In this document: piece after piece, positions 9,344-54,113 of the stretch
Layout: each line of letters opens with the position of its first letter
Position numbering within the stretch: the first letter of the stretch is position 1
Origin: a virus
Strand: one strand, 5' to 3'
Virus record (IMG/VR): IMGVR_UViG_3300017917_002963
Span: 1-57,880 of that record
Length of the DNA stretch: 57,880 nucleotides
Notes under the pieces: model-generated
Databases searched by the model: none
Told to the model about the DNA's origin: nothing
Seen by the model: the letters and a program-made list of their open reading frames with translations, nothing else
Translations under genes and position numbers: made by a program

Positions 9344-9820
9344 ATGCTGCTACAAGAACTTTTTGACCCTGCCGTTGCGTTTGATATCGATTGGGACTGG
9401 TCAGATCTCCAAAGTGGCGATGTGTATGCCAGTGCTTATGATCGCCAGGGCCGCAACATCGACTTCAGTTTCATCAGCACCAACCCCGGCGCTTGGGATA
9501 TTGAATTTGTGCGCGGCGGCAGCCATGCCATCACAGGTCGAGGCGATGCCGAGCGAGTGTTTGCCACTGTGCTGCAGGCTGTGCAACAGTTTGTTCAGCG
9601 GGTGCGGCCACAAGTGGTGTTGTTTTCGGGCAAAGAAACCAGCCGTGCTCGACTGTATCGTGCCTTGGTAAATAGATATGCCAACCAGTGGGGATATCAG
9701 TTGTATCCCTTGACCATGGAACGCGCCAAAGAGGTGTTTGGCGACGACCCGTTGAACCATCGTCGTGTGCATGACAGTGAGAGCGGTCATCTGTTGGTGC
9801 TGAAAAGAAAGTACGCATGA
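9344..9820 (+). CDS. putative injected protein with domain shared by the 11593 protein (158 aa)
   Basis: Begins MLLQELFDPA, closely resembling the T4 Alt leader (MELITELFDE as I recall it). The body (ERVFATVLQAVQQFV ... PQVVLFSGKETSRARLYRALVNRY) is clearly paralogous to residues 40-110 of the 11593-12987 protein (FRVFATVAAIIRDWV ... PSVLTFSADK). No catalytic motif is recognised. A TAAATA box (9335-9340) precedes it and its stop overlaps the next ATG. Confidence 0.75.
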   Translation: MLLQELFDPAVAFDIDWDWSDLQSGDVYASAYDRQGRNIDFSFISTNPGAWDIEFVRGGSHAITGRGDAERVFATVLQAVQQFVQRVRPQVVLFSGKETSRARLYRALVNRYANQWGYQLYPLTMERAKEVFGDDPLNHRRVHDSESGHLLVLKRKYA

Positions 9821-10038
9821 GAGCCGCAGAATTTACAACTGGCATCCCGTTTGATTTGAAGGAATCAGTTGCGCCGGGGTTTGACGTTTTCAAGGCGTCG
9901 GTCCGCGCCAAAACCCCCACGGGCACAGTCTCAACCGAAGTTGCTATTTTTGCAAAGAGTGCACAAATGGCCAAACAACTGTTGCAAGCTCAATTCGGCA
10001 GCGATGCAGTAATTTCAACTGTGACCAAGATATCATGA
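9817..10038 (+). CDS. small putative injected protein (73 aa)
   Basis: Starts MRAAEFTTG, the leader type shared by its neighbours. It is followed by a small alpha/beta domain (FDVFKASVRAKTPTGTV, then MAKQLLQAQFG). It overlaps both neighbours by 4 bases, so it sits in a translationally coupled run. Function unknown. Confidence 0.7.
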   Translation: MRAAEFTTGIPFDLKESVAPGFDVFKASVRAKTPTGTVSTEVAIFAKSAQMAKQLLQAQFGSDAVISTVTKIS

Positions 10039-10931
10039 GAGCCACTGAGTTTGTCACTGAAGCAGCCACAGACATTGTGTATCACTACACCAGCACACAC
10101 AATGCCGCACGTATCATGAAAGACGGCGTGTTCAAGCTGGCAGCAACCGGCGGCGATGATTACGAAGCACGGTATGCACCACCAGGGTATCCATTCTTCC
10201 TCAGCACCACCCGCAGCAAAGTTGGAGACTATCATCGCTATTTGGGTTCCAGCGGGGTTATGTTTGTGTTAGACGGCCGCTGGCTATCGGCGCGTTATCT
10301 TGTGAAACCCATAGACTTCTGGGATCGCAGTTGGCAGCATACCCCTGATCGCACTAGAGAAGCCGAGGACCGTGTGTTCAGTCGAGAACCAGACATGCCC
10401 ATTGACGGCGTCACTGCCGTGCATGTACTACTGACAGAACCCGGTCAACCACGCGGGCCGCTGTCGCGTCAGATTCTAATTGCTGCGAAAACCCGAGGTA
10501 TTCCTGCGTACTTGTACAACAACGAAGCGGCATTCCGCACACAAAATATATCAAAGTCTGTGCCGATTGCTCAAGCTGGAGAGTTACTAAAAGGGCAAGA
10601 AGTCACGCCCAGTTTTCGTCGTCCCACTCGTGGACTCGCCGCACGTCGTGGCGGCGAAGCTTGGGGCAAGAGCAGCATATATGACTGGATTGAATTGATC
10701 AAAAAGCAACCTGGTCAAGCACTGAGCAAGTCAGCAGACAAATTGCGTTACAATATTGCCTACTACGGTGATCACTCAGACATGCTCAGAAGTGACCTGT
10801 TCAATGCCAGAAAGCCCAGCAGTGGCGGCGAATATGATCTAGCCAATAGACTGCAAGCATACATGCAGAAAAATAAGTTGACTGTCAATACACTAACGGA
10901 CCGTCTCAAAGAAAAGTGGAAACGATCATGA
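10035..10931 (+). CDS. ADP-ribosyltransferase-like protein with targeting leader (298 aa)
   Basis: Leader MRATEFVTEA is followed at residue about 15 by IVYHYTSTHNAARIMKDGVFKL. This is the Y-H-x-T ... I-L/M-x-D-G pattern of the ADP-ribosyltransferase / RNA 2'-phosphotransferase fold. FFLSTTRSKVG about 35 residues later fits the next core strand (STS-like). T4 packages Alt, an ADP-ribosyltransferase that modifies host RNA polymerase on injection, so this combination is functionally suggestive. The catalytic Glu is not certain from sequence alone. Coupled to both neighbours. Confidence 0.65.
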   Translation: MRATEFVTEAATDIVYHYTSTHNAARIMKDGVFKLAATGGDDYEARYAPPGYPFFLSTTRSKVGDYHRYLGSSGVMFVLDGRWLSARYLVKPIDFWDRSWQHTPDRTREAEDRVFSREPDMPIDGVTAVHVLLTEPGQPRGPLSRQILIAAKTRGIPAYLYNNEAAFRTQNISKSVPIAQAGELLKGQEVTPSFRRPTRGLAARRGGEAWGKSSIYDWIELIKKQPGQALSKSADKLRYNIAYYGDHSDMLRSDLFNARKPSSGGEYDLANRLQAYMQKNKLTVNTLTDRLKEKWKRS

Positions 10932-11593
10932 GAGCTACTGATTTTGTAATCGAAGCAGATTTTGATCCAGGAATCCGAGACGAACTCAAACGACAAGGAT
11001 ACCGATTCCTCGGTAGTGGAGTAGATCAACAGGCCTACTTGGCGCCTGACGGCACTGTGATGAAGATTTTTGGCACCAGCCTGCGCCGTCAAGGCAGCAC
11101 GAAACTCACTCGTGCTCAAAAGGCATTCAAGCTGTTTGCTGATTATTGCCGTGCCAATTCAGGCAACCCATTCCTGCCCGAGTTCAGTGATTGGAACATG
11201 TTTCACTATGATGACCGTCCGTACCTGCAGATCAAATCTGAACGCCTGTTTGAGTTCCCTGGTAACCTCAAAGTCTGGGCACGCATTCTCGAGGATATCG
11301 CCGTATACGCACGTCGGGGCAATACCAATGCAAGAAAACAAGATTGGCTGCAGCAGAAGTTGATTAACCCCGACACTTGGATTGATATACATCGGGTCGA
11401 CAGTGTGTCTTCCTTGTTGGTGCACCTGGGCGAAAATGGGTTCAATCAGTTGTGGGACACCATTTATCAACTGGCGCAACTGGCCGAGCAGAACGGAATA
11501 ATGCTGGACCTGCATGACGGCAACTTCATGCTGGGCAGTGATGGCCACATTGTGATCAGTGATCCGTTTTTCACTGGATATGGAAGCAGGTGA
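10928..11593 (+). CDS. protein-kinase-like protein with targeting leader (221 aa)
   Basis: I chose ATG 10928, overlapping the upstream stop, over 10916, because it exposes the shared leader MRATDFVIEAD. FLGSGVDQQAYLA resembles a glycine-rich loop and VMKIFG holds a candidate ATP-binding Lys. Near the C-terminus, MLDLHDGNFMLG, then IVISDPF match the catalytic loop (HxDxxxxN-like) and the DFG-equivalent of eukaryotic-like and aminoglycoside-phosphotransferase-like kinases. At 221 residues it is a minimal kinase. It could phosphorylate host proteins early in infection; that role is inferred. Confidence 0.7.
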   Translation: MRATDFVIEADFDPGIRDELKRQGYRFLGSGVDQQAYLAPDGTVMKIFGTSLRRQGSTKLTRAQKAFKLFADYCRANSGNPFLPEFSDWNMFHYDDRPYLQIKSERLFEFPGNLKVWARILEDIAVYARRGNTNARKQDWLQQKLINPDTWIDIHRVDSVSSLLVHLGENGFNQLWDTIYQLAQLAEQNGIMLDLHDGNFMLGSDGHIVISDPFFTGYGSR

Positions 11594-12987
11594 TGAGAGC
11601 TACTGAGTTTGTTGCAGAAAGCCTTGATCGTGCCTATGAATGGGAACCACGCCTGGACGGTGGCATGTTTCGTGCGGCCGATGGCGAAATTGTTCGGGTT
11701 CAGTTTGATGTCATGGGTGTGGCTCGTCACGATGTGTGGGCAGTGAGCTTCAACCGCGGTGTCAACTATGACCTTACCGGCACAGGCGATGAATTCAGAG
11801 TGTTTGCCACTGTGGCAGCAATCATTCGTGACTGGGTTCGGCGCAATCGGCCCAGTGTGTTGACGTTTTCGGCTGACAAAAGTGATGGCAATCGAGTGCG
11901 GTTGTATCAACGCCTGATCAATCGATTGATTCAGAACTCAGGTTACGTGGATGTGAGTCGCAATGCAGATGTCATCACCGACAGCGGTGCCAGGTTTGCC
12001 ACCCAGACCATTCTATACAAACTAAACACCCCCGACCATTCGGTGTTTGCCCTGGCCAGACAGGACCTGGTGGCAGATCCGGAACCAGTGCAGGAATCCT
12101 GGGGACCAGAACGGTATCCCATTCCCTTGCCCATTGGTGACTATCTCAGTCACGAACAGCATGAGTTTGCGCCACCTGGTGATTATCGGGACGTGAGCAT
12201 TTTGCATCGTGAAGTGGGTCAAATGATCAACCAAGGTGTGCAACCCCACACAGTGCCAGTAGACCCCCGACAACTGTTGGCCACACAAGATTGGCTCAGC
12301 AACGAGGGTGGTGGCGAGCCCTTGTTCCCTGAATATGCAGATCGTCCAGTTGTGTATGAAAAGCAAGGCAAAGCGTATATACTTGATGGACATCATAGAA
12401 CAACCCGTGCACAGCGGTTGAACCGCCCTATCTCGGTATACTTGTTCACAGATGAAACTGATGATGAATACGATGATGAGGAATCCGTAAACGAAGATGC
12501 ATATGATGTGTTGCACTCACACCAGTGTGGCCCTTTCGATGGCGGTTGTGTCATGGTAGCACAAGCCTTGCAGCAGATTCACGGTGGTGACATTGTGGTG
12601 CTGGTAGATTCAAATGACCAAGCGCAGCATGCCGCTGTGGCAGTTGACGGTCAGCTGATGGACTACAGTGGCGCGGCACCGATCAGGCAGTTTGTTGATC
12701 GGTTCCAGCGCAATGAGCGTGTGAAGATCTCAGGTGTGCGGCCCATTCGGCCACAAGATCTACCTGAGGCGCCACGTGACCGCAACACTGTGACACAACT
12801 GGTGCAGGTGTTGGGCGAGAACTTTGCCGACGGTCGCAAGCCCGGACGCCGGGGTCTGGCCAAGCGCATGGGTGTGGATTGCAAACAGAGTGTGAGCAAA
12901 TTGAGAAGCATTGCCAAGAAATCATCAGGCGAGCGGCAGCGAATGGCCAATTGGTGTGCCAACATGAAGTCAGGAAAACGCAAATGA
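11593..12987 (+). CDS. multidomain putative injected protein with ParB-like domain (464 aa)
   Basis: ATG 11593 overlaps the kinase stop (TGATG). Leader MRATEFVAESL. Residues about 15-135 are paralogous to the 9344 protein. VQESWGPERYP and VNEDAYD may be processing sites. The centre (VPVDPRQLLATQ ... KAYILDGHHRTTRAQRLN) matches a ParB/sulfiredoxin-like domain with the GHHR motif, which binds nucleotides and acts as a nuclease or CTPase in relatives. A segment with HQCGPFDGGC then HAAVAVDG could be a papain-like fold, uncertain. The C-terminus (KRMGVDCKQSV ... NWCANMKSGKRK) is a short basic Cys motif. Confidence 0.7.
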   Translation: MRATEFVAESLDRAYEWEPRLDGGMFRAADGEIVRVQFDVMGVARHDVWAVSFNRGVNYDLTGTGDEFRVFATVAAIIRDWVRRNRPSVLTFSADKSDGNRVRLYQRLINRLIQNSGYVDVSRNADVITDSGARFATQTILYKLNTPDHSVFALARQDLVADPEPVQESWGPERYPIPLPIGDYLSHEQHEFAPPGDYRDVSILHREVGQMINQGVQPHTVPVDPRQLLATQDWLSNEGGGEPLFPEYADRPVVYEKQGKAYILDGHHRTTRAQRLNRPISVYLFTDETDDEYDDEESVNEDAYDVLHSHQCGPFDGGCVMVAQALQQIHGGDIVVLVDSNDQAQHAAVAVDGQLMDYSGAAPIRQFVDRFQRNERVKISGVRPIRPQDLPEAPRDRNTVTQLVQVLGENFADGRKPGRRGLAKRMGVDCKQSVSKLRSIAKKSSGERQRMANWCANMKSGKRK

Positions 12988-13391
12988 GAGACCTAATCAA
13001 CCTACTGGAAGCCGTGGAAAAGGGCTGCCCGCCTGCCACACAAAGCATTGACCTCAACCTAAAAAATCGTCAAAAAGCCATCGACGAGTATCATTATGGT
13101 CCACTCAACCCCAACGAACCCAATGATGAATACTGGCAGGTGTTGGCTGACAAATGGAACACTGGCGTCGAAGAAGCAAAGTCTACTAGATGCGGAAATT
13201 GTGCAGCATTTGATATTACAAAGAAAACACTTGAATGCATCGACAAGGGAATTGGTACACAAGACGACTTTGATATAATAGAAGCTGGAAAATTGGGATT
13301 TTGCAGATTTTTAAAATTTAAATGCAATGCATTACGAACCTGTTCGGCTTGGGTAGAGGGCGGACCCATAACTGATAAAAAAGCTGACTGA
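12984..13391 (+). CDS. Cys-rich putative injected protein (135 aa)
   Basis: ATG 12984 overlaps the upstream stop. Leader-like start MRDLINLLEAVEKG. The second half has four or more conserved-looking cysteines (CGNCAAFD, LECIDKG, LGFCRFLKFKC, RTCSAWV) and is probably metal-binding. I recall similar C-rich domains in marine phage virion proteins but cannot name a family. The gene becomes AT-rich toward its 3' end, next to the homing endonuclease insertion. Confidence 0.7.
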   Translation: MRDLINLLEAVEKGCPPATQSIDLNLKNRQKAIDEYHYGPLNPNEPNDEYWQVLADKWNTGVEEAKSTRCGNCAAFDITKKTLECIDKGIGTQDDFDIIEAGKLGFCRFLKFKCNALRTCSAWVEGGPITDKKAD

Positions 13392-13425
13392 ACCCATGCA
13401 TCGCATGTGCGGCATAAATAACTGC

Positions 13426-14091
13426 ATGTTAATATATCGAGCAGTTAACACTATCAACGGAAAATCCTACGTAGGTAAAACTGAAAAAACACTCAACGAG
13501 AGAAAATTTAGTCATCTCAACGAAGCCAAAAGAGATAAAGGCTTTGCCTTTCATGCAGCCATTAGAAAATACGGTGAAGAAAGTTTTGCATGGGAAGTAA
13601 TTGACGATACTATCTCAGACGTAATGCTGTTAAATCAAAAAGAAGAATATTACATTGCACTTTACGAGTCCTTTGGTCCAAAAGGATATAATATGACCAA
13701 GGGTGGTGAAGGACAAAACGGGTGGGTCCCATCTGCAGAAACAAGAACTGTCTGGAGTCAACAACGTAAGGGAAAAACTCCGTGGAACAAAGGTAATACA
13801 TTTTCAAAATATAAGCCTATGCTGGAAGAAGAAAAATCACAAAGAAAAGAAGTTGCTAATCAAAAACGAAGTGAGGCGTTGAAAGGCCGAAAAACTTGGA
13901 ATTCAGGATTAAAAAATGCATACGCTTTAACCAAGTACAAAGTCACATACAAAGATGGAGTTGAAAAAATCGGAACTAGGCTAGAGTTAAGATTGCCTAG
14001 GCAGACTATTAGTACCATGTTTCGAGATAAGTGCGGTAGTCGTAAATACAATATTATGAAAATAGAAAGAATATGCGAGCACAAGATCTAA
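13426..14091 (+). CDS. GIY-YIG homing endonuclease
   Basis: MLIYRAVNTINGKSYVGKTEK is a GIY-YIG core (IYRAVN ... YVGKT). A catalytic-type Arg/His stretch (LNERKFSHL) and Glu follow, then NUMOD-like repeats (TPWNKGN, SEALKGR). I prefer ATG 13426, just after the late-type TAAATA box (13415-13420), over an upstream ATG at 13396. The gene is clearly AT-richer than its neighbours and overlaps the next gene by 19 bases. This is typical of a free-standing mobile endonuclease inserted between coupled genes. Confidence 0.85.
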   Translation: MLIYRAVNTINGKSYVGKTEKTLNERKFSHLNEAKRDKGFAFHAAIRKYGEESFAWEVIDDTISDVMLLNQKEEYYIALYESFGPKGYNMTKGGEGQNGWVPSAETRTVWSQQRKGKTPWNKGNTFSKYKPMLEEEKSQRKEVANQKRSEALKGRKTWNSGLKNAYALTKYKVTYKDGVEKIGTRLELRLPRQTISTMFRDKCGSRKYNIMKIERICEHKI

Positions 14092-16082
14092 CACCCGTCA
14101 ACGAAGTCAGCATGACTCCCCGTGATTTTGCACAGGCCCTGGACCAAGCCGGCAGCGCGGGTGTGTTGATTGGGTTTGAGTTTGAAGCCTATGTCAAAGC
14201 TGCAAATCTCGGTGGCGGCCCAGGCGGCGATACTTTGTCTCGTATTGGCCAAGCCAGCAAATCAGAGCAGCAAAGCATAACCGAATATGCTGTTGACAAC
14301 CTGTCTGTGAACAGCAGCAACATAGATGACATTGACCGGGCGCTGCAATACAACCCACGATACCCCAAAATCAAGTATGCTGACGCCTGGCGGGTGACCC
14401 AGCGTGACCTGATTGACCGTGTCAAGCGAATGTATGAGCAGTTGCACAGCGATCATCAAAAACATCTAAAAAAACAGATCATGCAACAGCTGGCGCGGAC
14501 TGACACTGGCAAGCAAACCGAGGCGAGATTCGCGGCAGCTGTGGCCAATGATCTAGGACACTGGGGCTTGAGCAATCTAATCAAAAAATTCGACACTAGA
14601 GATACAGACAGCCGCACAATACAGTTTTTGAACAACGTATGCTACTATGTGTTGTCTAACCAAGTGCGCCAAAACAACACCATAACTGACTGGCCGCTTG
14701 CATTCAGCATTTTCCCAGAGCTGGAGCAACATGTAGCTGATTATTTTGACGAAGCTGATGACTACTATGTCAGTTACCGTGTCACTGCCCAGGCGCTGAA
14801 GCCCATACTGAGTCAAGCTGTGGGGCGCCCAGTGCATGTGTTTGACACGTATCATGCCCGCAAGAAAAACGCCACTGACTGGTATATCGAGCCCGATGGC
14901 AGTGTCGATGAACCAGAGCCAGGCGAACAAGGTTTGGAAATTGTGACTCCGCCATTGGATGTGCCTGCGGCCATGCAAGCCCTGCAGACATTCTACAGCC
15001 TAGCTGAAAAATACCAGTTTAGAACCACCGGTGCCAAGGGCGCCACTGGACTGCACATCAACATGAGCATCCCCGACAAGGTAGATCCCATGAAGCTGGC
15101 ACTGTTCCTAGGCGACCAACATGTGCTCCAAAGTTTTGGACGTGAAAACAACGATTATGCAAGAAGCGTGCTGGCCCAACTGCGAGACTGGGACTACGCT
15201 GATGACGCCAGCTGGAGGCCTGTGGTAAAGGCAACACGCGAAAAACAAAAAGGCGGCCGAGCCTTGGTCAGCCAAGAGTTTCGCATGAAAGCCCTAAAAG
15301 ACATTGCAGCAGATGTCATGGATTACCACACTGTGAGTATCAGTGGCGAAAACAAAAAGTATTTCAGTTTCCGTCATGCAGGCGGTGACTATCTAGCTGA
15401 CATGGGCAAGGTCATCAACACAGTGGGTCGCTTTGCTCGAGCCCTGTTGATTGCCAGTGACCCCAACGCTTATCGTCGGGAGTATATGACCAAGCTGAGT
15501 CAGTTGGTCGGACCAACTGCATTTGCTCCTCAACTGCCAGACAACGACCAAGCGGCCACCAAACAACTGCTATTACAGTTGGTTCAATCAGTGCGCAGCC
15601 AGGGATGGCCACTCAAACACTATTGGGTGGTAGGCCAGGGACCAGGTCCCGAGGCTGTGGCTCGAGAGTTACGTCAGTGGCAAACACATACAAAGTGGAA
15701 ACAATTGAACGCTCAGCAAATGACCCAGATTCTACAGTCCGCTGCAGCATCCAACCCCAGAGCAGGCGAATTTCTAGACAATATACGCCAAGACCCCACT
15801 AACTACAGCGCCTATTTTGTAGGCACTGCCACGCAACTGGCGGACCTGTCGCGCATCAAACCTGACACACTCAGATACGAGCTGAGGAGATTGTTGGATG
15901 ACTTCAAGCCATCCAACGACGTTACAAGGGCATCCACACGCGGGCGCACCCACTGGATAGGATCTACTAGACAGATGGTGCCAGCATCTGATCCCAGGGT
16001 AACAGCCCTACTGAGTCAACTGTTGACATTGTTCAAACAGTATACAGCATGGTCAGCCAAACAGCAGCGGGGCAGAAGATGA
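14073..16082 (+). CDS. amidoligase-family enzyme with targeting-like N-terminus (669 aa)
   Basis: Starts MRAQDLTPVNEVSM, a leader variant. VLIGFEFEAYV (about residue 30) opens the amidoligase domain. DWYIEPDGSVDEPEPGEQGLEIVTPP and TGLHINMSIPDK, then a FRHAGGDYL segment complete the glutamine-synthetase-like metal/ATP core. The same set occurs in the 5269-9336 protein. Family members form amide bonds with an amino-acid amine. The next gene is gamma-glutamylcyclotransferase-like, so the pair may make and remove a gamma-glutamyl-type link (inference). No other domain recognised; a basic C-terminus ends the protein. Confidence 0.75.
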   Translation: MRAQDLTPVNEVSMTPRDFAQALDQAGSAGVLIGFEFEAYVKAANLGGGPGGDTLSRIGQASKSEQQSITEYAVDNLSVNSSNIDDIDRALQYNPRYPKIKYADAWRVTQRDLIDRVKRMYEQLHSDHQKHLKKQIMQQLARTDTGKQTEARFAAAVANDLGHWGLSNLIKKFDTRDTDSRTIQFLNNVCYYVLSNQVRQNNTITDWPLAFSIFPELEQHVADYFDEADDYYVSYRVTAQALKPILSQAVGRPVHVFDTYHARKKNATDWYIEPDGSVDEPEPGEQGLEIVTPPLDVPAAMQALQTFYSLAEKYQFRTTGAKGATGLHINMSIPDKVDPMKLALFLGDQHVLQSFGRENNDYARSVLAQLRDWDYADDASWRPVVKATREKQKGGRALVSQEFRMKALKDIAADVMDYHTVSISGENKKYFSFRHAGGDYLADMGKVINTVGRFARALLIASDPNAYRREYMTKLSQLVGPTAFAPQLPDNDQAATKQLLLQLVQSVRSQGWPLKHYWVVGQGPGPEAVARELRQWQTHTKWKQLNAQQMTQILQSAAASNPRAGEFLDNIRQDPTNYSAYFVGTATQLADLSRIKPDTLRYELRRLLDDFKPSNDVTRASTRGRTHWIGSTRQMVPASDPRVTALLSQLLTLFKQYTAWSAKQQRGRR

Positions 16083-16525
16083 ACCTTGTGGATCTACTGG
16101 AGGGCGGCGCTGTTCCACGCTACTACTTTGCCTATGGCATGCTGACCGACCCTGAGGTCATGGGCGACACGCCCCTGGTGGGCGCTGCGGTGCTGCGCAA
16201 CTGGCAATTTGAATTCCTGCAGTATGCCAATGTGATTCCACAAGCAGGCGGCGAGGTTTGGGGCAGTCTCTGGCAGGTCGACGACAAAATCATGAACGAA
16301 CTGGATCAAGTGGAAGGCTATCCCAATTTCTATGATAGGAAAACAGTTCCAGTCAGCTGCAACGGCAAGAGATATGTTGCAGAAGTATACACCATGACTC
16401 CTGAAAGTCGTGAGTGGTTGGAGGGCACACACCCCAGTCGGAAATATGTGCAACGGTTGGTCAATGGTTATCGTCACGCTGGATTACCAATGACTCAAAT
16501 TCACACAGCGTTGGAAGTTTTGTAA
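16079..16525 (+). CDS. gamma-glutamylcyclotransferase / AIG2-like protein (148 aa)
   Basis: ATG 16079 overlaps the amidoligase stop. MNLVDLLEGG looks like a targeting leader with a processing-type LLEG. RYYFAYGMLTDPEVM is the YGxL substrate-binding loop of the GGCT/AIG2 fold. GEVWGSLWQVDD, then LDQVEGYPNFYDRKTV supply the expected catalytic Glu region (xxEGxPxxY). These enzymes cleave gamma-glutamyl amides with release of 5-oxoproline. Size fits the family. Confidence 0.8.
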   Translation: MNLVDLLEGGAVPRYYFAYGMLTDPEVMGDTPLVGAAVLRNWQFEFLQYANVIPQAGGEVWGSLWQVDDKIMNELDQVEGYPNFYDRKTVPVSCNGKRYVAEVYTMTPESREWLEGTHPSRKYVQRLVNGYRHAGLPMTQIHTALEVL

Positions 16526-17011
16526 TTTCTTTTTGATCTAACACAGCACAAGGTTGGCGGGCCGATGGTAATACCGCTGATGAACCCGTGGTGATGTCGC
16601 ACGGTAGTCAATTCCTGCCGCTGTGGCAGGGCTTTTGTTCTCTACCCAGACGCTGTCTGGATGCCTTGAAACGGTCCCCCACAGGGGTTTACGTTAGAAC
16701 AATCGTAACAGGTTGAGTGCAGCGCAAGCTGACTTATTGTCTGATACTGTCATAGATCCAATTGACACCGAGGGATCTTTAAAAGTCGTAGCAGGTGGGG
16801 TAAGGTACAGAGCCCAGAACAGTAGACAACCAAATACCTGATGTCACAAGTGTGGCTGAGCAACTCAGCGAATGTCTTGACGCCCAGAATCTGGGTGTCG
16901 TATGGCGTCACAATCTAGCGAAATATCTCTCCTTAACGATTCAAATCAAAGCGAGCTGACAAGCGAAGCTTTGGATTGCGTATGCAATCCCGGTATGGTA
17001 AATAAGTTATC
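16526..17011 (+). ncRNA. 486-base non-coding, highly structured interval (candidate ncRNA)
   Basis: No credible gene occurs here although the flanking genes are packed tightly. Several strong hairpins are visible: TGCC-GCTGT-GGCA near 16618, CCCC-CACA-GGGG near 16676, GCTGAG-CAA-CTCAGC near 16855, ACGCCCAG-AAT-CTGGGTGT near 16880, and GGATTGC-GTAT-GCAATCC near 16973. Composition is not AT-rich. A TAAATA box (16998-17003) near the 3' end serves the next gene. I could not match it to a known RNA class. Confidence 0.5.
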
Positions 17012-17335
17012 ATGTTGCTAAACGAACTCTTTGAACCAAGGTCTAGACCTTGTGCTGTGTGTGATCAAACACCTTGTGTTTGTGATACACCAGTGCACGA
17101 AGACCTTCGCAAGTGGTTTAAGGAAAAATGGGTTCGTTTTGGCCCCGATGGAAAAATTCGTGGATCTTGTGCGCGTGGTAGTGAGCGCGAAGGCAAGCCC
17201 AAATGTTTGCCACAAAAGAAAGCTCATGCCCTGGGCAAGCAAGCCCGTGCTGCGGCTGCAAGACGCAAACGCAGACAAGACCCCAATGCCGATCGCAAAG
17301 GAGCAGCCATCAACGTGGCTACCAAGAAAAAATGA
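17012..17335 (+). CDS. basic putative injected protein with Alt-like leader (107 aa)
   Basis: Leader MLLNELFEPRS, close to the T4 Alt leader as I recall it. Two CxxC-like groups (CAVCDQTPCVC) follow, then EDLRKWFKEKWVRFGPDG and a CARG ... KPKCLP region that may bind zinc, and a very Lys/Arg-rich tail. A small, basic, internal-head-like protein is the best description. Late-type box 8 bases upstream; the stop overlaps the next ATG. Confidence 0.75.
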   Translation: MLLNELFEPRSRPCAVCDQTPCVCDTPVHEDLRKWFKEKWVRFGPDGKIRGSCARGSEREGKPKCLPQKKAHALGKQARAAAARRKRRQDPNADRKGAAINVATKKK

Positions 17336-20300
17336 TTGTAACTGACCTTTTTGAATCCCGTCAAACCTGCCCCGAATGTGGCGGCCCAGCATTCAACGAT
17401 TTGTTGTTGGCTGAAAAACAAGATGCCTGCTACCACAAGGTTCGCAGCCGCTACCAGGTGTGGCCCAGTGCATATGCTTCGGGCGCGCTGGTTCAGTGCC
17501 GTAAAAAAGGTGCTGCCAACTGGGGCAACAAGAGCAAGACTGAAAGTGTGGCCGAAGGTACAGACACTGAAAAAGACGTGTTGTCATTTGGCAAACATGA
17601 CTTCCGGCGTTGGAAGTCATACGCCGAACAAGAAGGCTATGAAATTCGCGAAGCTGGTACCTTGCCTGGATCATATGCTGCATACAGCAATGGCAAACAA
17701 GTGGGTTACTTCATGAACGAGTTTGACTTGCCCAATGAGCATGAACGCGGTGTTGTGGGCCGGTTGTTGGTCTCCCCGGCCCCGGAAGAAGATATAGCAG
17801 AAGGTACTGAACCGGGCATGTGGGTAGTGAAATATTGGGACCGACAGCCAGGCAACGACCCAGCCCAGCGAGAGTTCACATCAAAACCTGCAGCCGACAA
17901 ATTTGCGCAGACTCTGCCCCGACATTACACAGTTGCTGTTCGACCTCAATCAAAAGACACTCGCCCAGACATGGGCGAAAGTGTGGCAGAAGGCTCGGTG
18001 TGGTCCAGTGTAGATCAGAAAATGAAACATCATTCAGAATTCCCGCATACACATTCTGCCGCTATCGACATTCGTAGCAGCATGAGCGGTGAGGTCATCG
18101 TGCCCAAAGGTGCTAGATTAAGTGCGTTAGGTAATGATAACTATTTGAATTTAGATACAGGTGGTCAACCATTCAAACTTGATCCTGCAGGCGTAGTAAA
18201 GCAAGGTGTGACGGAAGGCTTGTTTGATAGATTCAAGAAAAAGCCAAAGGTTCAAGTAGTTGATCCAGGTCAATTCCCCGAGATAGGTTCTGACATTGTA
18301 CAGTGGATGGCAGATGTAGTTGAATATTGGAAGGCAACCAAGCCAGAAAAACTCTGGTTCCTATTCTGCCCATCCTCGGGAGATTACTTGCCTATGCGTG
18401 TTACTGTGGGCACCTCTAGCAAAACCATGAACCAGCACATGGATGCATATCGTAGACTGCGCGATGCCAACCCTGCGGCCAAGGCCAAGGCTAGAGAGCA
18501 ATATCTAGACTACAGCAAGTATTCATCAGGACCCGACGAAGATTACAGCAACAAAATGGACGAAGGCTGGAAAGAAAAAGTTGCAGCGGGTGCGTTAGGC
18601 GCAGCCGCTTTGGGTGGTATTGGCGCAGGCATTGCCCACAGCCCAATGGCACGTGTAGATGGAAAACAAATACATATGGCAGTGCCAGGAAAAATTCCAG
18701 ACAATGCCGAACTTGTCACGGATGACGACGGCAAAAAGATTTATATTTGGAGATCCTATCCCATAAAAAATTCTCCCGGTAACACCAACGGTCACTTAGT
18801 TTATCGTCCAGCAGAGGATGTTAAGGAAGGTGTGACGGAAGGCTACCACCCAGCTGATGATTGGGAAGAAGTTGACACAATCAAAAGCACTCAAGGGCGT
18901 GAGTTGGGATGGGTGTTGCGACACCACAATGGTACCTATGCCTACTACGACGAACGCACGGGCGATGTAGAGGCCGGCTTTGCCACTGCACAACAGGCTC
19001 GTCAAGCATTTGTTGACATGTTTAACAGCAGAAAGAAGTCTGTGGCGGAAGGCTCAACCGATCTAACTGACATATGGCAACAAGGCCGAGAAGCAGCATA
19101 TAAGGGCAAGGGCCCAACTGCATGCCCATACAAGATGTTTTCGAGAGAATACAATGCTTGGCAACAAGGTTGGCAAGACCAAAAAGCTAGTAGTAGTCAC
19201 CGCCTGGCGGAAGCCGACAAACATAGTATGCTTGGTAAAATTCAACGCGGCCATGAACTAAAGAAAAAAGTAGATTCAACTTTTAAAGATATCAGTAAGG
19301 CACAACAAGCGGGTGATCATCCATCAGCAAGTAAAGCATTTAGAAAGCATGAGCGTTATGCTAACTTAGAGCGTCCTGGCACTTGGACTAAAGTTGATGA
19401 GCAAGGGGTAGCAGAAGGCTATATTCTAAAGAAAACTAATGTTTCCAAATATATGGAGCCAGGTGATCCTGATGAATATACACAGGATGTCAACGTCAAA
19501 GATACTGATTACGAAATCATCAACAACAAAACAGGTCAGGTGGTAGGCACAGCAAGTTGGACTACAAATGATTTCTTTGGTCCTGGAGCGTTGAAGATCA
19601 CTATGAAGAATGGTGCTACCCGCTGGTTAGATATTTGGGAGCGTGAAAAAGGCAACCCACAAAGTGCTTTCAATCGCTTTGTGAAAGATCCAAAAACATC
19701 CAAAAAATATAAAGAGCAAGGTGTGTCTGAAGGCACCGAAAGTTCTATTGAAAAGAAAATACGAGCAAAACAGGATGCGCTGTCGTTGGCAAGAGAACAG
19801 CGTCGTGCCAGGGGGCAACGTCAACAAGGGCAGCGAGAAATCAAACTGCAAGCCGAAATTGACCGACTCAACACCGAGCTGACACAACTGAAAAAGCAAC
19901 ACATGTCAGAAGGTTGGAGCGATCAAGACCCCGAACAGCGGGCCATGGACGCCACACGCTGGGCACGTCAACGTCGTGGTCGCCAACCGCGAGGCAGCGA
20001 AGCCATTGATGATCGACTGCGCGCCGAAAACGAATACCGGCTGAACCAACAGCCCCACTGGGTACAGATCAAGTCCACTGGTGAGTATGTGGCTGGTCCG
20101 TTTCCGGGCATGACCGCAGCCAACCGCGAGGGCTGGGCCTATGTGAACGCCAACCCCGGCACAGATGCTGGTGACCTACAGCTGACCCCAGTGGCGCCGC
20201 CCACACTAGAAGGCTGGAAAGGCGAGCTGGTTGGTGGTACCGTGGGATCGTTGGCTGGGGGTATTGCTGGTGGCTCGGCAGGCGCCAGCGTGGGCCCAAC

Positions 20301-20793
20301 AGTGGGAGGCACCATTGGTGGCATGGTAGGCGGATTGCCAGGAGCTCTAGCTGGAATGGCTGCCGGCGCAGCAGCAGGTCCAGCTGTGGGCGCGGCCCTG
20401 GGCGGTACAGCTGCCGGCATGGTGGGATCAAGAGTGGGCGACAAATTGGGAGGTCCAGCCACCACCGAGGACGAACAGGAAGTTAACGAAATTGCACCGG
20501 CATTGATTGCTGTGGGTCGCTTGGCAGCACCTTACATTGGCAAAAAAATACTTGACAAGTTGTCTGGTCCCGACCAAGAGTTGTTGGAACCCGATGACGA
20601 GCAAACCGAAGTGCAAGAAGTGTCACGCCGGGCAGCACCCGAGCCCACATATGATCAAGACTTTCAAGACAAAGTGGCTCGCCTCAAACAACTGGCCGGT
20701 GCTGGTCCGCTCAAGACTGTGTGGGACCCCTCACGCAGAGTGTACAGAAACATTCCAGTTGCGCAACAACCTGCAGGAAGCAAAAACAAATGA
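17332..20793 (+). CDS. putative injected polyprotein with eleven xxEG processing-type motifs (1153 aa)
   Basis: I chose ATG 17332 (ATGA overlap), giving leader MIVTDLFESR. A CPECGG zinc-ribbon start and ACYHKVRSRYQVWPSAYASG domain follow. The protein is then broken into 60-120-residue pieces by motifs such as SVAEG, DIAEG, GVTEG, MDEGW, GVSEG, MSEGW and TLEGW, with the Glu at residues 75, 157, 220, 295, 411, 503, 573, 695, 800, 860 and 960. Pieces hold different small domains. Residues about 965-1045 form a long glycine zipper, typical of membrane-inserting segments. The repeated xE|G pattern resembles prohead-protease sites, suggesting maturation into about a dozen injected peptides. Confidence 0.75.
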   Translation: MIVTDLFESRQTCPECGGPAFNDLLLAEKQDACYHKVRSRYQVWPSAYASGALVQCRKKGAANWGNKSKTESVAEGTDTEKDVLSFGKHDFRRWKSYAEQEGYEIREAGTLPGSYAAYSNGKQVGYFMNEFDLPNEHERGVVGRLLVSPAPEEDIAEGTEPGMWVVKYWDRQPGNDPAQREFTSKPAADKFAQTLPRHYTVAVRPQSKDTRPDMGESVAEGSVWSSVDQKMKHHSEFPHTHSAAIDIRSSMSGEVIVPKGARLSALGNDNYLNLDTGGQPFKLDPAGVVKQGVTEGLFDRFKKKPKVQVVDPGQFPEIGSDIVQWMADVVEYWKATKPEKLWFLFCPSSGDYLPMRVTVGTSSKTMNQHMDAYRRLRDANPAAKAKAREQYLDYSKYSSGPDEDYSNKMDEGWKEKVAAGALGAAALGGIGAGIAHSPMARVDGKQIHMAVPGKIPDNAELVTDDDGKKIYIWRSYPIKNSPGNTNGHLVYRPAEDVKEGVTEGYHPADDWEEVDTIKSTQGRELGWVLRHHNGTYAYYDERTGDVEAGFATAQQARQAFVDMFNSRKKSVAEGSTDLTDIWQQGREAAYKGKGPTACPYKMFSREYNAWQQGWQDQKASSSHRLAEADKHSMLGKIQRGHELKKKVDSTFKDISKAQQAGDHPSASKAFRKHERYANLERPGTWTKVDEQGVAEGYILKKTNVSKYMEPGDPDEYTQDVNVKDTDYEIINNKTGQVVGTASWTTNDFFGPGALKITMKNGATRWLDIWEREKGNPQSAFNRFVKDPKTSKKYKEQGVSEGTESSIEKKIRAKQDALSLAREQRRARGQRQQGQREIKLQAEIDRLNTELTQLKKQHMSEGWSDQDPEQRAMDATRWARQRRGRQPRGSEAIDDRLRAENEYRLNQQPHWVQIKSTGEYVAGPFPGMTAANREGWAYVNANPGTDAGDLQLTPVAPPTLEGWKGELVGGTVGSLAGGIAGGSAGASVGPTVGGTIGGMVGGLPGALAGMAAGAAAGPAVGAALGGTAAGMVGSRVGDKLGGPATTEDEQEVNEIAPALIAVGRLAAPYIGKKILDKLSGPDQELLEPDDEQTEVQEVSRRAAPEPTYDQDFQDKVARLKQLAGAGPLKTVWDPSRRVYRNIPVAQQPAGSKNK

Positions 20794-21053
20794 GAGCTTG
20801 TGAATTTGTAGAAGACCATTTTGGTGTGTTGCCCAAGCGGGCACAGCGCCCCGGTGCTAGGCCGCCCCGGGGACACCAGCCGGTTGAACGCTACAAAAAA
20901 ATCAACGAGCTGGAATTCTTGGGTGATCCCTGCACTCGTGATTGTTCAGGTCACCGTGCCGGCTACGAGTGGTATCAACACAATCAACGCAATCCTGCGT
21001 CGCACAGCAACAGTTTCAATCGTGGTGCAGCATTGGCTCAAGCTGGTAGATAA
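20790..21053 (+). CDS. small Cys/His-rich putative injected protein (87 aa)
   Basis: ATG 20790 overlaps the polyprotein stop. Leader MRACEFVED is followed by a basic linker and a compact DPCTRDCSGHRAGYEW ... SHSNSFNRGA domain that could bind metal. The pattern looks like a small virion-associated domain; function unknown. Confidence 0.65.
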   Translation: MRACEFVEDHFGVLPKRAQRPGARPPRGHQPVERYKKINELEFLGDPCTRDCSGHRAGYEWYQHNQRNPASHSNSFNRGAALAQAGR

Positions 21054-21055
21054 GC

Positions 21056-21271
21056 ATGCGAATACAAGAAATTCTTGAATCAGCATCAGCAGGAGCAACT
21101 GCCAGTGGCGGCGTTGCTACAGTGTCACAGTCCTTGGGCATGCAAACAAGATCTGGTGGTTCTTTGCTAAATGGTAAATATACAACAGATCCTACGCCTA
21201 ACACGCCAAAGGAATTGAAAAGGTACAAACAACATGCTCGTGGACGATTTAAAAACTCTCCTGGCAACTGA
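21056..21271 (+). CDS. small basic putative injected protein (71 aa)
   Basis: Leader MRIQEILESASAG matches the shared signature. The remainder is Ser/Thr/Gly-rich, then basic (KELKRYKQHARGRFKN). A TAAATA box occurs inside it (21175-21180), possibly serving the overlapping downstream gene. Function unknown. Confidence 0.6.
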   Translation: MRIQEILESASAGATASGGVATVSQSLGMQTRSGGSLLNGKYTTDPTPNTPKELKRYKQHARGRFKNSPGN

Positions 21272-21677
21272 ATACGCTTTTGTGATCAAAGCGCAGTTGT
21301 TTCATTGGAACGTAGAAGGGCCTGACTTTGCTCAGCTGCACGAATTCTTTGGTGATATCTACCAAGAAGTGTATGACAACGCCATCGATCGCACAGCCGA
21401 ATACATTCGTATTCTCGACGACTACACTCCGGGCAGTTTTGAACGATTCATGGAACTCAGCGCCATCGCTGGTCAAACAAAAATTCCCCGAGCAAGACTC
21501 ATGATTCAAGAACTGTTGGCCGACAACCAGCGCTTGATTGATCTACTCAACGACGCCTTCCAGGCCGCCGAGCGAGAAAACCAGCAAGGCATCATGGACT
21601 TTTTGGCCGGACGCATCGATGCACATGGCAAACATGGCTGGATGTTGAAGAGTTTCTTGAAAGATCAACGAGCATGA
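21234..21677 (+). CDS. Dps / ferritin-like protein (147 aa)
   Basis: Overlaps the previous gene by 38 bases. KAQLFHWNVEGPDFAQLHEFFGDIY and NAIDRTAEYIRILDDYTPG match helices A and B of Dps-type ferritins: H-W-N-V-x-G, then D/E residues of the ferroxidase site. A four-helix bundle of normal family length follows. Dps proteins oxidise and store iron and protect DNA. It lacks the targeting leader of its neighbours. Confidence 0.8.
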   Translation: MLVDDLKTLLATEYAFVIKAQLFHWNVEGPDFAQLHEFFGDIYQEVYDNAIDRTAEYIRILDDYTPGSFERFMELSAIAGQTKIPRARLMIQELLADNQRLIDLLNDAFQAAERENQQGIMDFLAGRIDAHGKHGWMLKSFLKDQRA

Positions 21678-22357
21678 GTTCCGACATTCGATCAATACTG
21701 CAAAGATTAGCCATGGTCGAGGGCGCTACCTCGCCTGTCACAGTCAAGCATGGGCTAACTGACCAGCAGCAATCAGTACCACAGCTGCCAGCACTGTTCA
21801 AACCCAAACGTATTTCAGTACTCGACAACCCTCAGGACCCAAAACACCCTGCAGCAGGCTATGCAGTTGGTGCAGCAGAATCAACCAATCAATTGCAGCG
21901 AGCCATGAACACTGTGGAAGAGGACATGTTGAGCAAGGTCAAACGTGACTTTACCAATTACCTTGACCGCCTGGAACGCAAAGTAAAAGACAATCGCGGC
22001 CTCAGTCTTCCTGACTCTGCACATGCACAAAAACACCAAATGCAAGAGTTAGATCAATTGCCACAAAACGATTCCAATCAAGATGCTGTCACATCCGATG
22101 ATGCACACCCGGCGGCAACAAATCCAACGCCGTCGGGCGCAACTGGCGCACCGGTAAAAACAGTTGCCATGGAAGATGGCAGACTATTTGAAATACACGG
22201 CGACGAAGTGCAAGGATTTGAAGTGCGGTTTGGACCGCGCAAGTTGTCAACACGATTCCCCAAGCTGGATCATGCACAAACGGCAATCGAGCTGTTCAAA
22301 GCTCAACGACGCAACCGAGAACAAGATTCCGGCCAAGACTACATAGAAGAGCGTTAA
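21674..22357 (+). CDS. putative internal-head protein (227 aa)
   Basis: Overlaps the Dps-like stop. The N-terminus contains ILQRLAMVEGATSP, a leader ending in a xVEG site like those in the polyprotein. A coiled-coil-prone segment (SKVKRDFTNYLDRLERKV) and a low-complexity Asp/Ala/Pro region follow, then a C-terminal alpha/beta domain (LFEIHGDEVQGFEVRFG). Function unknown. Confidence 0.65.
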   Translation: MSSDIRSILQRLAMVEGATSPVTVKHGLTDQQQSVPQLPALFKPKRISVLDNPQDPKHPAAGYAVGAAESTNQLQRAMNTVEEDMLSKVKRDFTNYLDRLERKVKDNRGLSLPDSAHAQKHQMQELDQLPQNDSNQDAVTSDDAHPAATNPTPSGATGAPVKTVAMEDGRLFEIHGDEVQGFEVRFGPRKLSTRFPKLDHAQTAIELFKAQRRNREQDSGQDYIEER

Positions 22358-22359
22358 TC

Positions 22360-23601
22360 ATGAACATGAATGAACTAAACCACACCCCAAATCCGCAGTT
22401 GGACGAAATCAGCTTGGACCAAATTGGCCGTGGCATTGGGCGAGGTCTAGGAGCTGTGGGCAAAACTGTCGGAGCCATTGCAGGTGTCCCGCAAGGACTT
22501 GCTCAAGCAGCCAAACGTGGCTACCGCGGTACCGTGGGCACCATTGGCGGCGCAGCAGCACCAACTCAAGCACCAACAGCAACTGGCATGATTAACCCAG
22601 CCACCGGGCGTGCATATGTGCCCAGTGACTTTGATGAACCCGAAGAACCGATGTCTGCATTGCAGGCAGCACCGCAAGCAACCGGCGGAGCACGAACAGT
22701 ACAACAAATTCGGCAAGACATTCAAAATCTTGATGCAGCATATCGTCAGCGCATGCGTCAGCTTCAAAGCGAACTGTCTGGTGCAGGGTCTGAACCAGCT
22801 GCCGACGACTTTACCCAAGCACAGCGCGATTACATGGCTGCAATTGGCAGTGATGAACCTGCAGCCGCACCAGCAAGAGCAGCGGCACCAGCAAGAGCAG
22901 CAGCATCTGTACCACAAGAATTCATGACCACGCTGCAGGCATTGCCTGTGGCAAACTTGGCCACAATCAAGCGATTGCTACAGGCGCAAGCCAGGGTAGC
23001 CACTACTGAAGCTGCAAAAAAATCAGCAATGCGGCTGCCGGGGACAGCGTATAACCCTAACTCAGCCAAGGCCAAATCACGCAAGGCATCTAAATTGCCT
23101 AAAATCGCCAAACAAGCTGGAAAATTTGCAGCCGGTATTCCTGGAGCAGTGGCCACTGGATCTGGAATGGCCGTAGGTGCTGTGGGCGGCATGAAACAAG
23201 CGTATGCCAAAGGCAAGCAAACTGGACAGAAATATGTTGGCGGCGGAGCTATGAGCATGGATGATATGCAAATGGCTATCTCTTCGTTCACACCCGAACA
23301 AGCCAAACAAGCACTGGCATTCATCAAACAAATCGAAACCATGCGGGCAACCCCGGCAGCTCAAAAGGCCCCTGCAAAACCTGCAGCAAAACCCGCAGCC
23401 AAGCCTGCAGCAAAACCTGCGGCCAAGCCGGCATCATATGCGCCCACTGGTAAAGCCACCGCCATGCCACTCAACCCACTTCAGATACCCGCACGGGCTG
23501 CGATCCCAGCTAAACCAGCTGCACCAGTAGCAGTTGCTGAGTCACTGACCTGGTCTAAGAATTGGGATCCAAGTGCATCGTTGATCAAAAAGTTAAAGTG
23601 A
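22360..23601 (+). CDS. Ala/Lys/Pro-rich putative internal-head protein (413 aa)
   Basis: Starts MNMNELNHTPNP, a leader-like sequence, with LDEISLDQIGRG just after. It has Gly/Ala helical segments near residues 27-45 and 260-290 (GIPGAVATGSGMAVGAVGG), which could be amphipathic or membrane-interacting. A central predicted coiled coil (QQIRQDIQNLDAAYRQRMRQ) follows, and repeated (K/A)PAAKPAA units near residues 335-365. Low complexity and basic character fit a core, scaffold or internal protein. Confidence 0.65.
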   Translation: MNMNELNHTPNPQLDEISLDQIGRGIGRGLGAVGKTVGAIAGVPQGLAQAAKRGYRGTVGTIGGAAAPTQAPTATGMINPATGRAYVPSDFDEPEEPMSALQAAPQATGGARTVQQIRQDIQNLDAAYRQRMRQLQSELSGAGSEPAADDFTQAQRDYMAAIGSDEPAAAPARAAAPARAAASVPQEFMTTLQALPVANLATIKRLLQAQARVATTEAAKKSAMRLPGTAYNPNSAKAKSRKASKLPKIAKQAGKFAAGIPGAVATGSGMAVGAVGGMKQAYAKGKQTGQKYVGGGAMSMDDMQMAISSFTPEQAKQALAFIKQIETMRATPAAQKAPAKPAAKPAAKPAAKPAAKPASYAPTGKATAMPLNPLQIPARAAIPAKPAAPVAVAESLTWSKNWDPSASLIKKLK

Positions 23602-23724
23602 CCTCGCCTTAGGACCGTGGTTGTTATGACCATGTAGGCGGTCGGCCCGCTCCCGAGCCGTGGACCACCCAGATTCGCTACCTGGGCTCCAGAATCGGGA
23701 GCACCTCTTGATAAATACCCCAAC
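23602..23724 (+). ncRNA. short structured intergenic sequence (candidate small RNA)
   Basis: Between two genes lies a GC-rich interval with nested pairing: GCTCCCGA (near 23650) with TCGGGAGC (near 23695), enclosing a CCCAG ... CTGGG hairpin. A TGGTTGTTATGACCA hairpin lies upstream. A TAAATA box (23713-23718) leads the next gene. It may be a small RNA, a terminator-like structure or an mRNA leader. Confidence 0.4.
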
Positions 23725-24534
23725 ATGAGAAGCCATGAATTTGTCACCGAGACCGCTGCGGAGTCTCAGATCCTAAACTTGATTGCTGACCGTGCAGCAC
23801 ATTACCTGTTGACCAATAAGACCACACGAGACTCAATTGGTAAAATCCTGATGGCTCCAATTGATGGATACACTGAGTTTCAAGAAACTGTGCTGCTACG
23901 CAATCTTGGTATCAGCCCCACAGACAGCCCTGAAATCAACTGGTTGCTGGACAACGTTGAATTGGCCTTGATCAATCGGTCACACTCCAGCCAGCCCCGC
24001 ACCCTGGGCAGCTACGAACACATAACCCATTCTATTGTGGTATATATGCCAGCGGTCAAACGTTCTTTGGAATGGCGCAACGTTTCGATACAGAAGTTGG
24101 TGTCCAGCATATTGGTGCATGAGCTACAGCATGCCCTGGATTATCTAAAAAGCAGTGGTCGCGCATTCAAACCAAATCCATCAAGCGATCTACCCCCAGA
24201 CGTGGCATATCAACGCTATCTTCGTTTGCCAGAAGAGGTCAATGCTAGATTTGCCCAAGCATTGTTGGACATAGCAGGATACATCACTCGCATGGACAAT
24301 AGAAGTCAATTGGAGCGAGCAGTCCGCGTGGCGTTCCACAATAATCAGTTGACTCCGGATCTGTTTGATGACGACATTCGCCAATACCGTCGTTTACTGA
24401 GCAGAACCTACAAGTTCTTTGATGACTACATTGGGGCGCCCTACACATTCCAGCCCAAGCCACTGGCAGCCCGTGCATGGTCTTGGATCACTCGACTGCC
24501 CACTGATACCATAGCTCGCCAAAAGATCAACTGA
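23725..24534 (+). CDS. putative injected zinc metalloprotease (269 aa)
   Basis: Leader MRSHEFVTETAAES. At residues about 133-141 LVHELQHALDY is a clear HExxH zinc motif, and a downstream EEVNARFAQ supplies a plausible third Glu ligand. The rest is helical and Arg-rich. With the 5269 protein, this makes two metalloproteases among the putative packaged proteins. Target unknown. Confidence 0.75.
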   Translation: MRSHEFVTETAAESQILNLIADRAAHYLLTNKTTRDSIGKILMAPIDGYTEFQETVLLRNLGISPTDSPEINWLLDNVELALINRSHSSQPRTLGSYEHITHSIVVYMPAVKRSLEWRNVSIQKLVSSILVHELQHALDYLKSSGRAFKPNPSSDLPPDVAYQRYLRLPEEVNARFAQALLDIAGYITRMDNRSQLERAVRVAFHNNQLTPDLFDDDIRQYRRLLSRTYKFFDDYIGAPYTFQPKPLAARAWSWITRLPTDTIARQKIN

Positions 24535-28410: not shown

Positions 28411-28458
28411 TATGCTAATATCGCAAGTAAACATAAATAAATGTATCAGGAGATTGAT

Positions 28459-52588: not shown

Positions 52589-52664
52589 GCGCCGGTAGCT
52601 CAATGGTTAGAGCAGTGGACTCATAATCCATTGGTTGGGGGTTCAAGTCCCTCCGGGCGCACCA
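52589..52664 (+). tRNA. tRNA-Met (CAT)
   Basis: Standard 76-base cloverleaf with encoded CCA. The acceptor is GCGCCGG/CGGGCGC with one G-G mismatch. D arm GCTC/GAGC. Anticodon arm GTGGA-CTCATAA-TCCAT. T loop TTCAAGT. CAT could also be an elongator Ile decoder if modified to lysidine. Confidence 0.93.
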
Positions 52665-52669
52665 AATTT

Positions 52670-52744
52670 CTGGGGTTCGTATAATGGATAATACAGGGGT
52701 CTTCTAAGCCCTTAATAGAGGTTCGATTCCTCTACCCCGGGCCA
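52670..52744 (+). tRNA. tRNA-Arg (TCT)
   Basis: 75 bases. Acceptor CTGGGGT/ACCCCGG, discriminator G, CCA encoded. D arm GTAT/ATAC, anticodon loop CTTCTAA, T loop TTCGATT. It sits 5 bases after tRNA-Met and would read AGA, a codon usually rare in GC-leaning hosts. Confidence 0.92.
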
Positions 52745-52764
52745 ACTTTTTCAAAAGGTGTTTC

Positions 52765-53043: not shown

Positions 53044-53088
53044 CAGTGTGCATGCCCGAAATAACGGTACTGGTCAATAAATACCAGC

Positions 53089-53169: not shown

Positions 53170-53184
53170 TGTTGCCCAAAACAT

Positions 53185-53213
53185 TTGACAAGTGTTATAC
53201 TATCAAAAATAAT
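53185..53213 (+). promoter_or_regulatory. sigma70-like promoter
   Basis: TTGACA (53185-53190), 17-base spacer, AATAAT (53208-53213), just upstream of the 53225 gene. Confidence 0.6.
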
Positions 53214-54110: not shown

Positions 54111-54113
54111 TAG

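Follow-up and report, generated by a model that had tools for sequence, protein, structure and literature searches.

The IMG/VR virus record IMGVR_UViG_3300017917_002963 (57,880 nucleotides, hereafter the 57.9-kb window), evidently a fragment, carries on its plus strand an open reading frame (ORF) at 17332..20793 that encodes a protein of 1153 amino acids (aa). A preliminary description of this DNA regarded the product as a polyprotein with eleven regularly spaced xxEG sites, after whose Glu residues a prohead protease would cut to release packaged peptides. The ORF is open and all 11 of the Glu codons are in place (E75, E157, E220, E295, E411, E503, E573, E695, E800, E860, and E960), with a spacing of 60–122 residues. 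An in-frame alternative start is present at 17203; the ATG at 17332, which overlaps the stop codon of the preceding gene at 17012-17335 (ATGA), yields a targeting-like N-terminus, the putative capsid-targeting sequence MIVTDLFE|S (17332..17355, plus strand).

Taken alone, EG pairs show only a mild enrichment in the polyprotein (14 vs. 8.1 expected, a number reached in about 3% of shuffles). The motif [GS]V[AST]E is found 7 times against a mean expectation of 0.17 and a maximum of 3 in 5000 shuffles, and none of the other ORFs in the window matches [GSTDAC][VILM]xEG more than once. Additional sites of the same kind that lack the Gly are located at E627 (RLAE|ADKHS), at E28 (LLAE|KQDACYHK), and at the N-terminal E8 (MIVTDLFE|S), and homology with four other phage contigs starts at E627. 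The Glu of the proposed xxEG motif is thus retained in our analyses, while Gly at P1', the position following it, is common yet not required.

The sites divide the polyprotein into cassettes, all on the plus strand, most of which have no match to known (Pfam) families. Cassette 1 (aa 29–75; 17416..17556), preceded by LLAE28 and ending in SVAE75|G, is a DUF5872-like KQDACYHKVRSRYQVWPSAYASGALV domain that matches phrog_727 with an E-value of 2e-21. This domain (KQDACYHKV...) occurs in 365 phage records, most of them from cyanophages, and its gene sits between gp16 and gp17 in two phage records that were inspected; in IMG/VR it has been confirmed by tblastn in at least 592 stretches, where it also occurs in other long proteins that share these joints but differ in their cassettes. 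Cassette 2 (aa 76–157; 17557..17802), which ends in DIAE157|G, contains a predicted helix-strand domain at residues 80–130 (pLDDT about 86–90), and is followed by cassette 3 (aa 158–220; 17803..17991), ending in SVAE220|G. Cassette 4 (aa 221–295; 17992..18216) is also present in another locus (L128), flanked by sites at both ends, with 85.7% DNA identity over 238 bp. Cassette 5 (aa 296–411; 18217..18564) ends in MDE411|GW, and cassette 6 (aa 412–503; 18565..18840), a glycine-rich hydrophobic segment with a small domain, has a homologue in L168 that is flanked by QGVAE sites and shows 49% identity over residues 413–495. A confident beta-alpha domain (residues 511–572, pLDDT about 89–97) is predicted for cassette 7 (aa 504–573; 18841..19050).

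One cassette that may be related to a protein of known function is cassette 8a (aa 574–627; 19051..19212), which is flanked by two predicted cleavage sites and resembles ribosome modulation factor (RMF). Its match to PF04957 (8.8e-6, 26.1 bits) lies under the cut-off of 27.9; its matches to RMF chains in the PDB (2jrm, E-value 0.0044; 6h4n, E-value 0.021) align the core residues QG..A..G..CPY..W..GW, and its length of 54 aa compares with 55 aa in the solved RMF chain 6h4n_v. The following cassette 8b (aa 628–695; 19213..19416), a ADKHSMLGKIQRGHELKKKV... domain, starts right after xxE both in the window (LAE|A) and in its relatives (GVAE|A, MDE|A, and LDE|V), so that the Glu is fixed and P1' is free. 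Cassette 9 (aa 696–800; 19417..19731) has a counterpart in L134 that is 94.3% identical over 335 bp of DNA and has a different upstream neighbour. Cassette 10 (aa 801–860; 19732..19911) consists of a single long predicted helix (805–859) between two sites, cassette 11 (aa 861–960; 19912..20211) ends in TLE960|GW, and cassette 12 (aa 961–1153; 20212..20790) combines a C-terminal module common to L043, L107, L114, and others with a glycine-zipper-like hydrophobic stretch, in agreement with the glycine zipper previously noted in this last piece.

A search of viral contigs with the whole protein returned no relative, because the protein is a mosaic without a single relative, and the search succeeded cassette by cassette. 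The polyprotein minus cassette 1 has no match in GenBank phages by tblastn, and most of its cassettes are therefore not known from cultured phages. The cassettes of its relatives include sigma-70 region 4, GNAT, LysM, and NT5C-like domains. Internal cassettes that resemble twin-arginine signal peptides or glycine-rich membrane helices are also seen, in L099, L147, and L209.

Among 140 ORFs pooled from 122 loci, 440 sites were counted, where 10 are expected; since part of this set was retrieved by one GARCARGGNGTNGCNGARGG pattern, which yielded 120 loci, the count is partly by construction, and the boundary tests described here and a codon test on loci outside the pattern selection are independent of that selection. 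The consensus of the joint is (E/K)QGVAE|x, with G (312), A (65), E (46), D (43), and S (22) at P1'. When the joints were masked and their positions compared with decoys placed at random or at random Glu residues, protein alignments between different polyproteins had both of their starts near a joint in 164 of 2772 cases (decoys 5–22) and both of their ends near a joint in 163 of 1917 cases (decoys 5–16). At the DNA level, both starts were at joints in 122 alignments and both ends in 137, compared with 7 and 5 for the decoys. A first boundary test, which used EG pairs only on the set of cassette 1 relatives, gave a modest result (19 alignments vs. 4.7 expected); EG is the wrong unit for such a test and V[AST]E the right one. 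The polyproteins are thus modular, with the sites at the edges of cassettes, and the pieces that were initially taken for unrelated small domains are independent cassettes whose edges lie at Glu sites in unrelated phages.

The joint is also conserved as DNA, in the form of a 21-nt word, RAGCAAGGTGTGGCGGAAGGC. In the loci outside the pattern selection, the joint uses GCG for Ala in 38 of 40 cases (10% in the remainder of these ORFs) and GTG for Val in 34 of 40 (27% in the remainder), a bias that persists in contigs of 34–38% G+C. All of the 122 copies of the word with at most two mismatches share one reading frame and sense, and between homologous cassettes, whose third positions are 48% identical, the third positions of the joint are 87.5% identical. 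The window's own copies have diverged further, like many in the G+C-richest quarter of the contigs; on its plus strand they comprise copy 1 at SVAE75 (17542..17558), which is diverged from the consensus DNA word GAGCAAGGTGTGGCGGAAGGC, a copy at EQGVAE695 (19402..19418), and further copies at 17788, 17977, 18202, 18826, and 19717, plus an SVAEG with its Glu at 19048. In 257 Gb of bacterial genomes the 21-nt word has one match, which lies inside a deaminase-like gene and was judged to be due to chance.

Cassettes have been exchanged recently between these polyproteins, with breakpoints at the joints. Near-identical cassettes in different surroundings are shared by L112 and L169 (199 bp, 100%), by L195 and L205 (507 bp, 99.8%), and by L192 and L209 (213 bp, 98.6%), with breaks at joints. 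The contigs with exchanged cassettes come from different samples; chimeric assembly was considered and is unlikely, as these cassettes recur across contigs of different samples. On the basis of the breakpoints and the codon conservation, we infer that the joint may be a recombination seam, the DNA word being active in this role and not passively copied. The conservation of the joint DNA is consistent with homogenisation through recombination within a single gene pool, and selection for a DNA-binding site is a possible alternative.

The head genes of the relatives are of the T4 type. Each of the 10 relative records that are at least 190 kb long encodes both a Peptidase_S77 protein (T4 gp21-type prohead protease) and gp23, and the order of the head genes, where read, is 67/68-like, 21, 22, 23, as in T4. 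In six gp23 sequences of relatives, LxE|[ANS] is found next to the T4 maturation site. The prohead protease sought in the preliminary description is thus located in the large relatives and has no counterpart in the window record, a fragment. According to PMC9026906, T4 gp21 cleaves after L/I-x-E, and the internal proteins reach the head by means of a 10-residue targeting sequence; T4 IPII and IPIII start with MKTYQEFIAE|A, to which the putative targeting sequence of the polyprotein is comparable. Targeting-like 5' ends are found in 74 of 103 polyproteins of relatives (28.6 in shuffles) and, among the genes neighbouring these, in 137 of 449 (55 in shuffles); the N-termini in the window were judged from ORFs, because the automatic gene caller missed many starts, and the enrichment is quantitative only for the relatives. 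In a low-confidence AlphaFold2 model, none of the 11 sites lies in a predicted secondary-structure element, compared with 37% of all residues, and the confident predicted domains (511–572, 697–795, and 805–859) fit exactly between sites; the possibility raised beforehand, that the motifs fall inside folded domains, is not borne out by this model. Fold searches with the whole polyprotein model gave nothing reliable.

We consider it probable that the polyprotein serves a T4-type jumbo phage as a magazine of small proteins and is targeted to the prohead, cut there by a gp21-type protease, and injected into the host. A short N-terminal targeting sequence would bring the chain into the prohead core, where the gp21-type prohead serine protease would cut after Glu at (E/K)QGVAE|x and at weaker [VILM]xE|x joints and thereby release about 12–14 peptides, one of them an RMF-like ribosome-binding protein. 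The released peptides would remain in the head and go into the host along with the DNA; the RMF-like cassette could then act early on host ribosomes. The joints would double as recombination seams, cassettes being exchanged at a 21-nt in-frame word common to unrelated phages, and we give about even chances to the idea that this word is used twice, as a prohead-protease site in the protein and as homology for cassette swapping in the DNA. The interpretation of the joints as prohead-protease sites is well supported at the sequence level, by the cassette edges at the sites, the lack of predicted secondary-structure elements at the sites, the protease of the relatives, and the T4-like N-termini; that cleavage, packaging, injection, and effector activity take place is what we infer from these features.

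Several observations weigh against this interpretation. The 57.9-kb record, as a fragment, contains neither gp21 nor gp23. Many homology boundaries lie away from such sites, P3 is V, L, or I in about half of the cases in an unbiased logo, and P3 of the joint is mostly Val, compared with Leu/Ile in T4. Given the DNA conservation, part of the constancy of the motif may not reflect protein function. The AlphaFold2 model of the polyprotein, which has few homologues, has a mean pLDDT of 50.6. Lastly, cyanophages make up most of the GenBank phages in which cassette 1 has a relative, and the protein of one of these, S-SM1, is annotated as hypothetical; the main text of the S-SM1 virion proteome paper (PMC3037559) does not name the cluster of this cassette 1 protein.

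Part of the evidence would also be expected if the protein were a polyvalent protein that is never cleaved, its joints being interdomain hinges whose sequence is kept only as a fixed-frame DNA recombination seam. The joint DNA is conserved beyond codon needs, cassettes are exchanged at the joint, and polyvalent proteins are large multidomain injected proteins, some of which are transferred unprocessed (PMC5512222). We regard this as unlikely, since the joints that lack the DNA word (SVAE, MDE, LAE, TLE, and LNE) still share [VILM]xE at cassette edges, the Glu is constant while P1' varies as counted above, the T4-like targeting N-termini finish in the same xxE, and a T4-type head protease is encoded by all of the large relatives. 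A simple flexible linker was rejected as a full account of the joints, as it fails to predict the fixed Glu, the hydrophobic P3, and the fixation of the GCG and GTG codons.

The chain could instead be cut by another protease (a zincin of the cluster, a phage ATP-dependent protease, or a host enzyme) after injection and not in the prohead. The window gene at 23725 is weakly zincin-like, a fragment of an ATP-dependent protease is present at 10-678, and zincins have been proposed for polyvalent proteins by Iyer et al. (PMC5512222); the match of [VILM]xE to T4 gp21 and the LxE at the gp23 maturation site of the relatives make this improbable. A scaffold or core role like that of T4 gp22, gp67, and gp68, with peptides that mostly leave the head and cassettes without a function in the host, has a precedent in the cleavage of T4 gp67 and gp22 to several peptides (PMC9026906). 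However, the relatives retain separate 67/68-like and gp22 genes, their cassettes resemble enzymes or regulators (GNAT, sigma-70 region 4, RMF, NT5C, and LysM), and the cassettes turn over fast, as effectors do; such a role is very improbable.

Separate genes whose N-termini are of the targeting-like type form a cluster around the polyprotein gene (9344-24534). They include kinase-like, GGACT, DUF6934, and weakly zincin-like members, and their products, judging from these N-termini, are likely also packaged in the head. The gene directly upstream (17012..17335, plus strand) encodes 107 aa with the N-terminus MLLNELFE|P and a LRKWFKEKWVRFGPDGKIRG(S/P)CARG domain, which is found as a cassette inside the polyproteins of L007, L014, L054, and L070; tblastn matches to this gene are present in two phage records. 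Other members of the cluster, all on the plus strand, are a gene at 10035..10931 (MRATEFVTE|A), with an ART-like opening recognised by eye (YHYTS..A..I...G) and no Pfam match; a kinase-like gene at 10928..11593 (MRATDFVIE|A), which matches phrog_15752 (protein kinase) and weakly PF18762 (Kinase-PolyVal, E-value 0.0077); a gene at 11593..12987 (MRATEFVAE|S) with DUF6934-like and ParB-like parts; a gamma-glutamylcyclotransferase (GGACT) gene at 16079..16525 (MNLVDLLE|GG; PF06094, 9e-17); and the weakly zincin-like gene at 23725..24534 (MRSHEFVTE|T), with a TAAATA at 23712. In L095, three tandem kinase-like genes, each starting with the targeting-like sequence MRI(T/N)E(I/L)(I/L)xE|S, are located on the reverse strand just downstream of gp23.

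A late-promoter-like TAAATA (T4 late core TATAAATA) is located at 16999..17004 on the plus strand, 13 nt before the gene at 17012, and probably serves both this gene and the polyprotein. TAAATA occurs 21 times on the plus (coding) strand of the window and once on its minus strand, with several copies 10–30 nt before gene starts, and from its sequence it may represent a reduced form of a T4-like late promoter core. Its position before ORF starts (13 of 21, against a null of 46%) is not discriminating, whereas the 21-to-1 strand bias is; among the polyproteins it is found upstream of 31, compared with 6 in antisense.

The DNA polymerase of the window is nearest to those of T4-type jumbo phages, e.g., Sinorhizobium phage Phosso and Agrobacterium phage Atu_ph07. 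At 53518-53944 lies a tmRNA gene of the permuted, two-piece type (Rfam tmRNA_permuted and beta_tmRNA, both well over threshold), with the tag peptide ATAANDEVFALAA; this gene hints at a betaproteobacterial host. It adjoins a cluster of 11 tRNA genes at 52589-57171 identified by ARAGORN in addition to the tmRNA, among them three for Glu(ttc) and three for Asp(gtc), with weaker extras by Rfam. GTP cyclohydrolase and QueE-like genes (34805-36037 and 41178-42074) suggest a deazaguanine (queuosine-type) pathway. Homing endonuclease-type genes are present at 13396-14091 and, shortly downstream of the DNA polymerase gene, at 28441-29145 (PHROG homing endonuclease matches; NUMOD3). Amidoligase-like domains (phrog_2443, PF12224) are found in the genes at 5269-9336 and 14073-16082, the former of which additionally carries a phrog_36119 domain at its N-terminus, together with a KKARVKYGFGGWFYPGYNFDSGA..GGGESINE segment resembling one in L054. 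A cytidylyltransferase-like gene at 2671-3795 has a C-terminal KWSRKYKRSIDCSNPKGFSQRAHCAGRKK module that comes after LDE and recurs in cyanophage proteins with 75–87% identity; a putative cytidylyltransferase is present in S-SM1 virions.

The polyprotein shares features with several known systems. With the T4 internal proteins IPI–III and Alt (PMC9026906) it shares a short N-terminus ending in xxE, Glu at P1, and a hydrophobic P3, and, in the relatives of the window, the gp21-type protease and the T4 head gene order. The T4 proteins are products of separate small targeted genes, whereas here many cassettes are fused with internal sites, and Val is preferred at P3 with a QG extension before it; no T4 internal-protein family (IPI–III, Alt) is among the PHROG or Pfam matches of the polyprotein. 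Polyvalent proteins (Iyer et al., 2017; PMC5512222) likewise combine disparate small domains in one chain, as do the RMF-like, DUF5872-like, glycine-zipper, and other cassettes here, with mosaic exchange, shared domain classes (GNAT, ParB-like, and kinase), and probable delivery with the DNA. They differ in that their processing is proposed to involve embedded zincins (common, not universal), for which the polyprotein has no match, the only and weak one being in the separate gene at 23725; in addition, most cassettes here have no Pfam family, and a regular interdomain prohead-protease site or a shared DNA word is not mentioned in the text available.

The inner-body and ejection proteins of phiKZ, 201phi2-1, and SPN3US, with their gp175-type proteases (PMC9026906), resemble the polyprotein in their cuts after Glu (S/A-X-E in phiKZ), in several sites per protein, and in ejection into the host; their sites mostly remove propeptides, and cassette exchange and a DNA-conserved joint are not described in the text available. 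The polyproteins of eukaryotic RNA viruses provide an operational analogy, with several products made from one chain by a viral protease, but their protease and domains are unrelated and the cassettes here are interchangeable. A survey of jumbo phages (PMC7824862) notes, in its available text, a gp21-type peptidase for head maturation only, and the terms "prohead protease," "cleavage site," and "capsid-targeting" are absent from it; the string QGVAEG was not found in the literature searched, which covers only a minority of subscription papers and no preprints.

The double use of the joint is possibly a new principle. If our interpretation is correct, it would represent an open plug-in platform by which many T4-type jumbo phages gain injected peptides and deliver them with no need for additional genes, promoters, or targeting signals, the delivered cargo evolving by cassette exchange. 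The borders of the cassettes would then be readable from sequence alone, and hundreds of uncharacterised small phage domains could be predicted to be injected effectors, each with its borders defined. What the heads of giant phages contain beyond DNA, a long-standing question, would become directly testable in existing virion proteomes.

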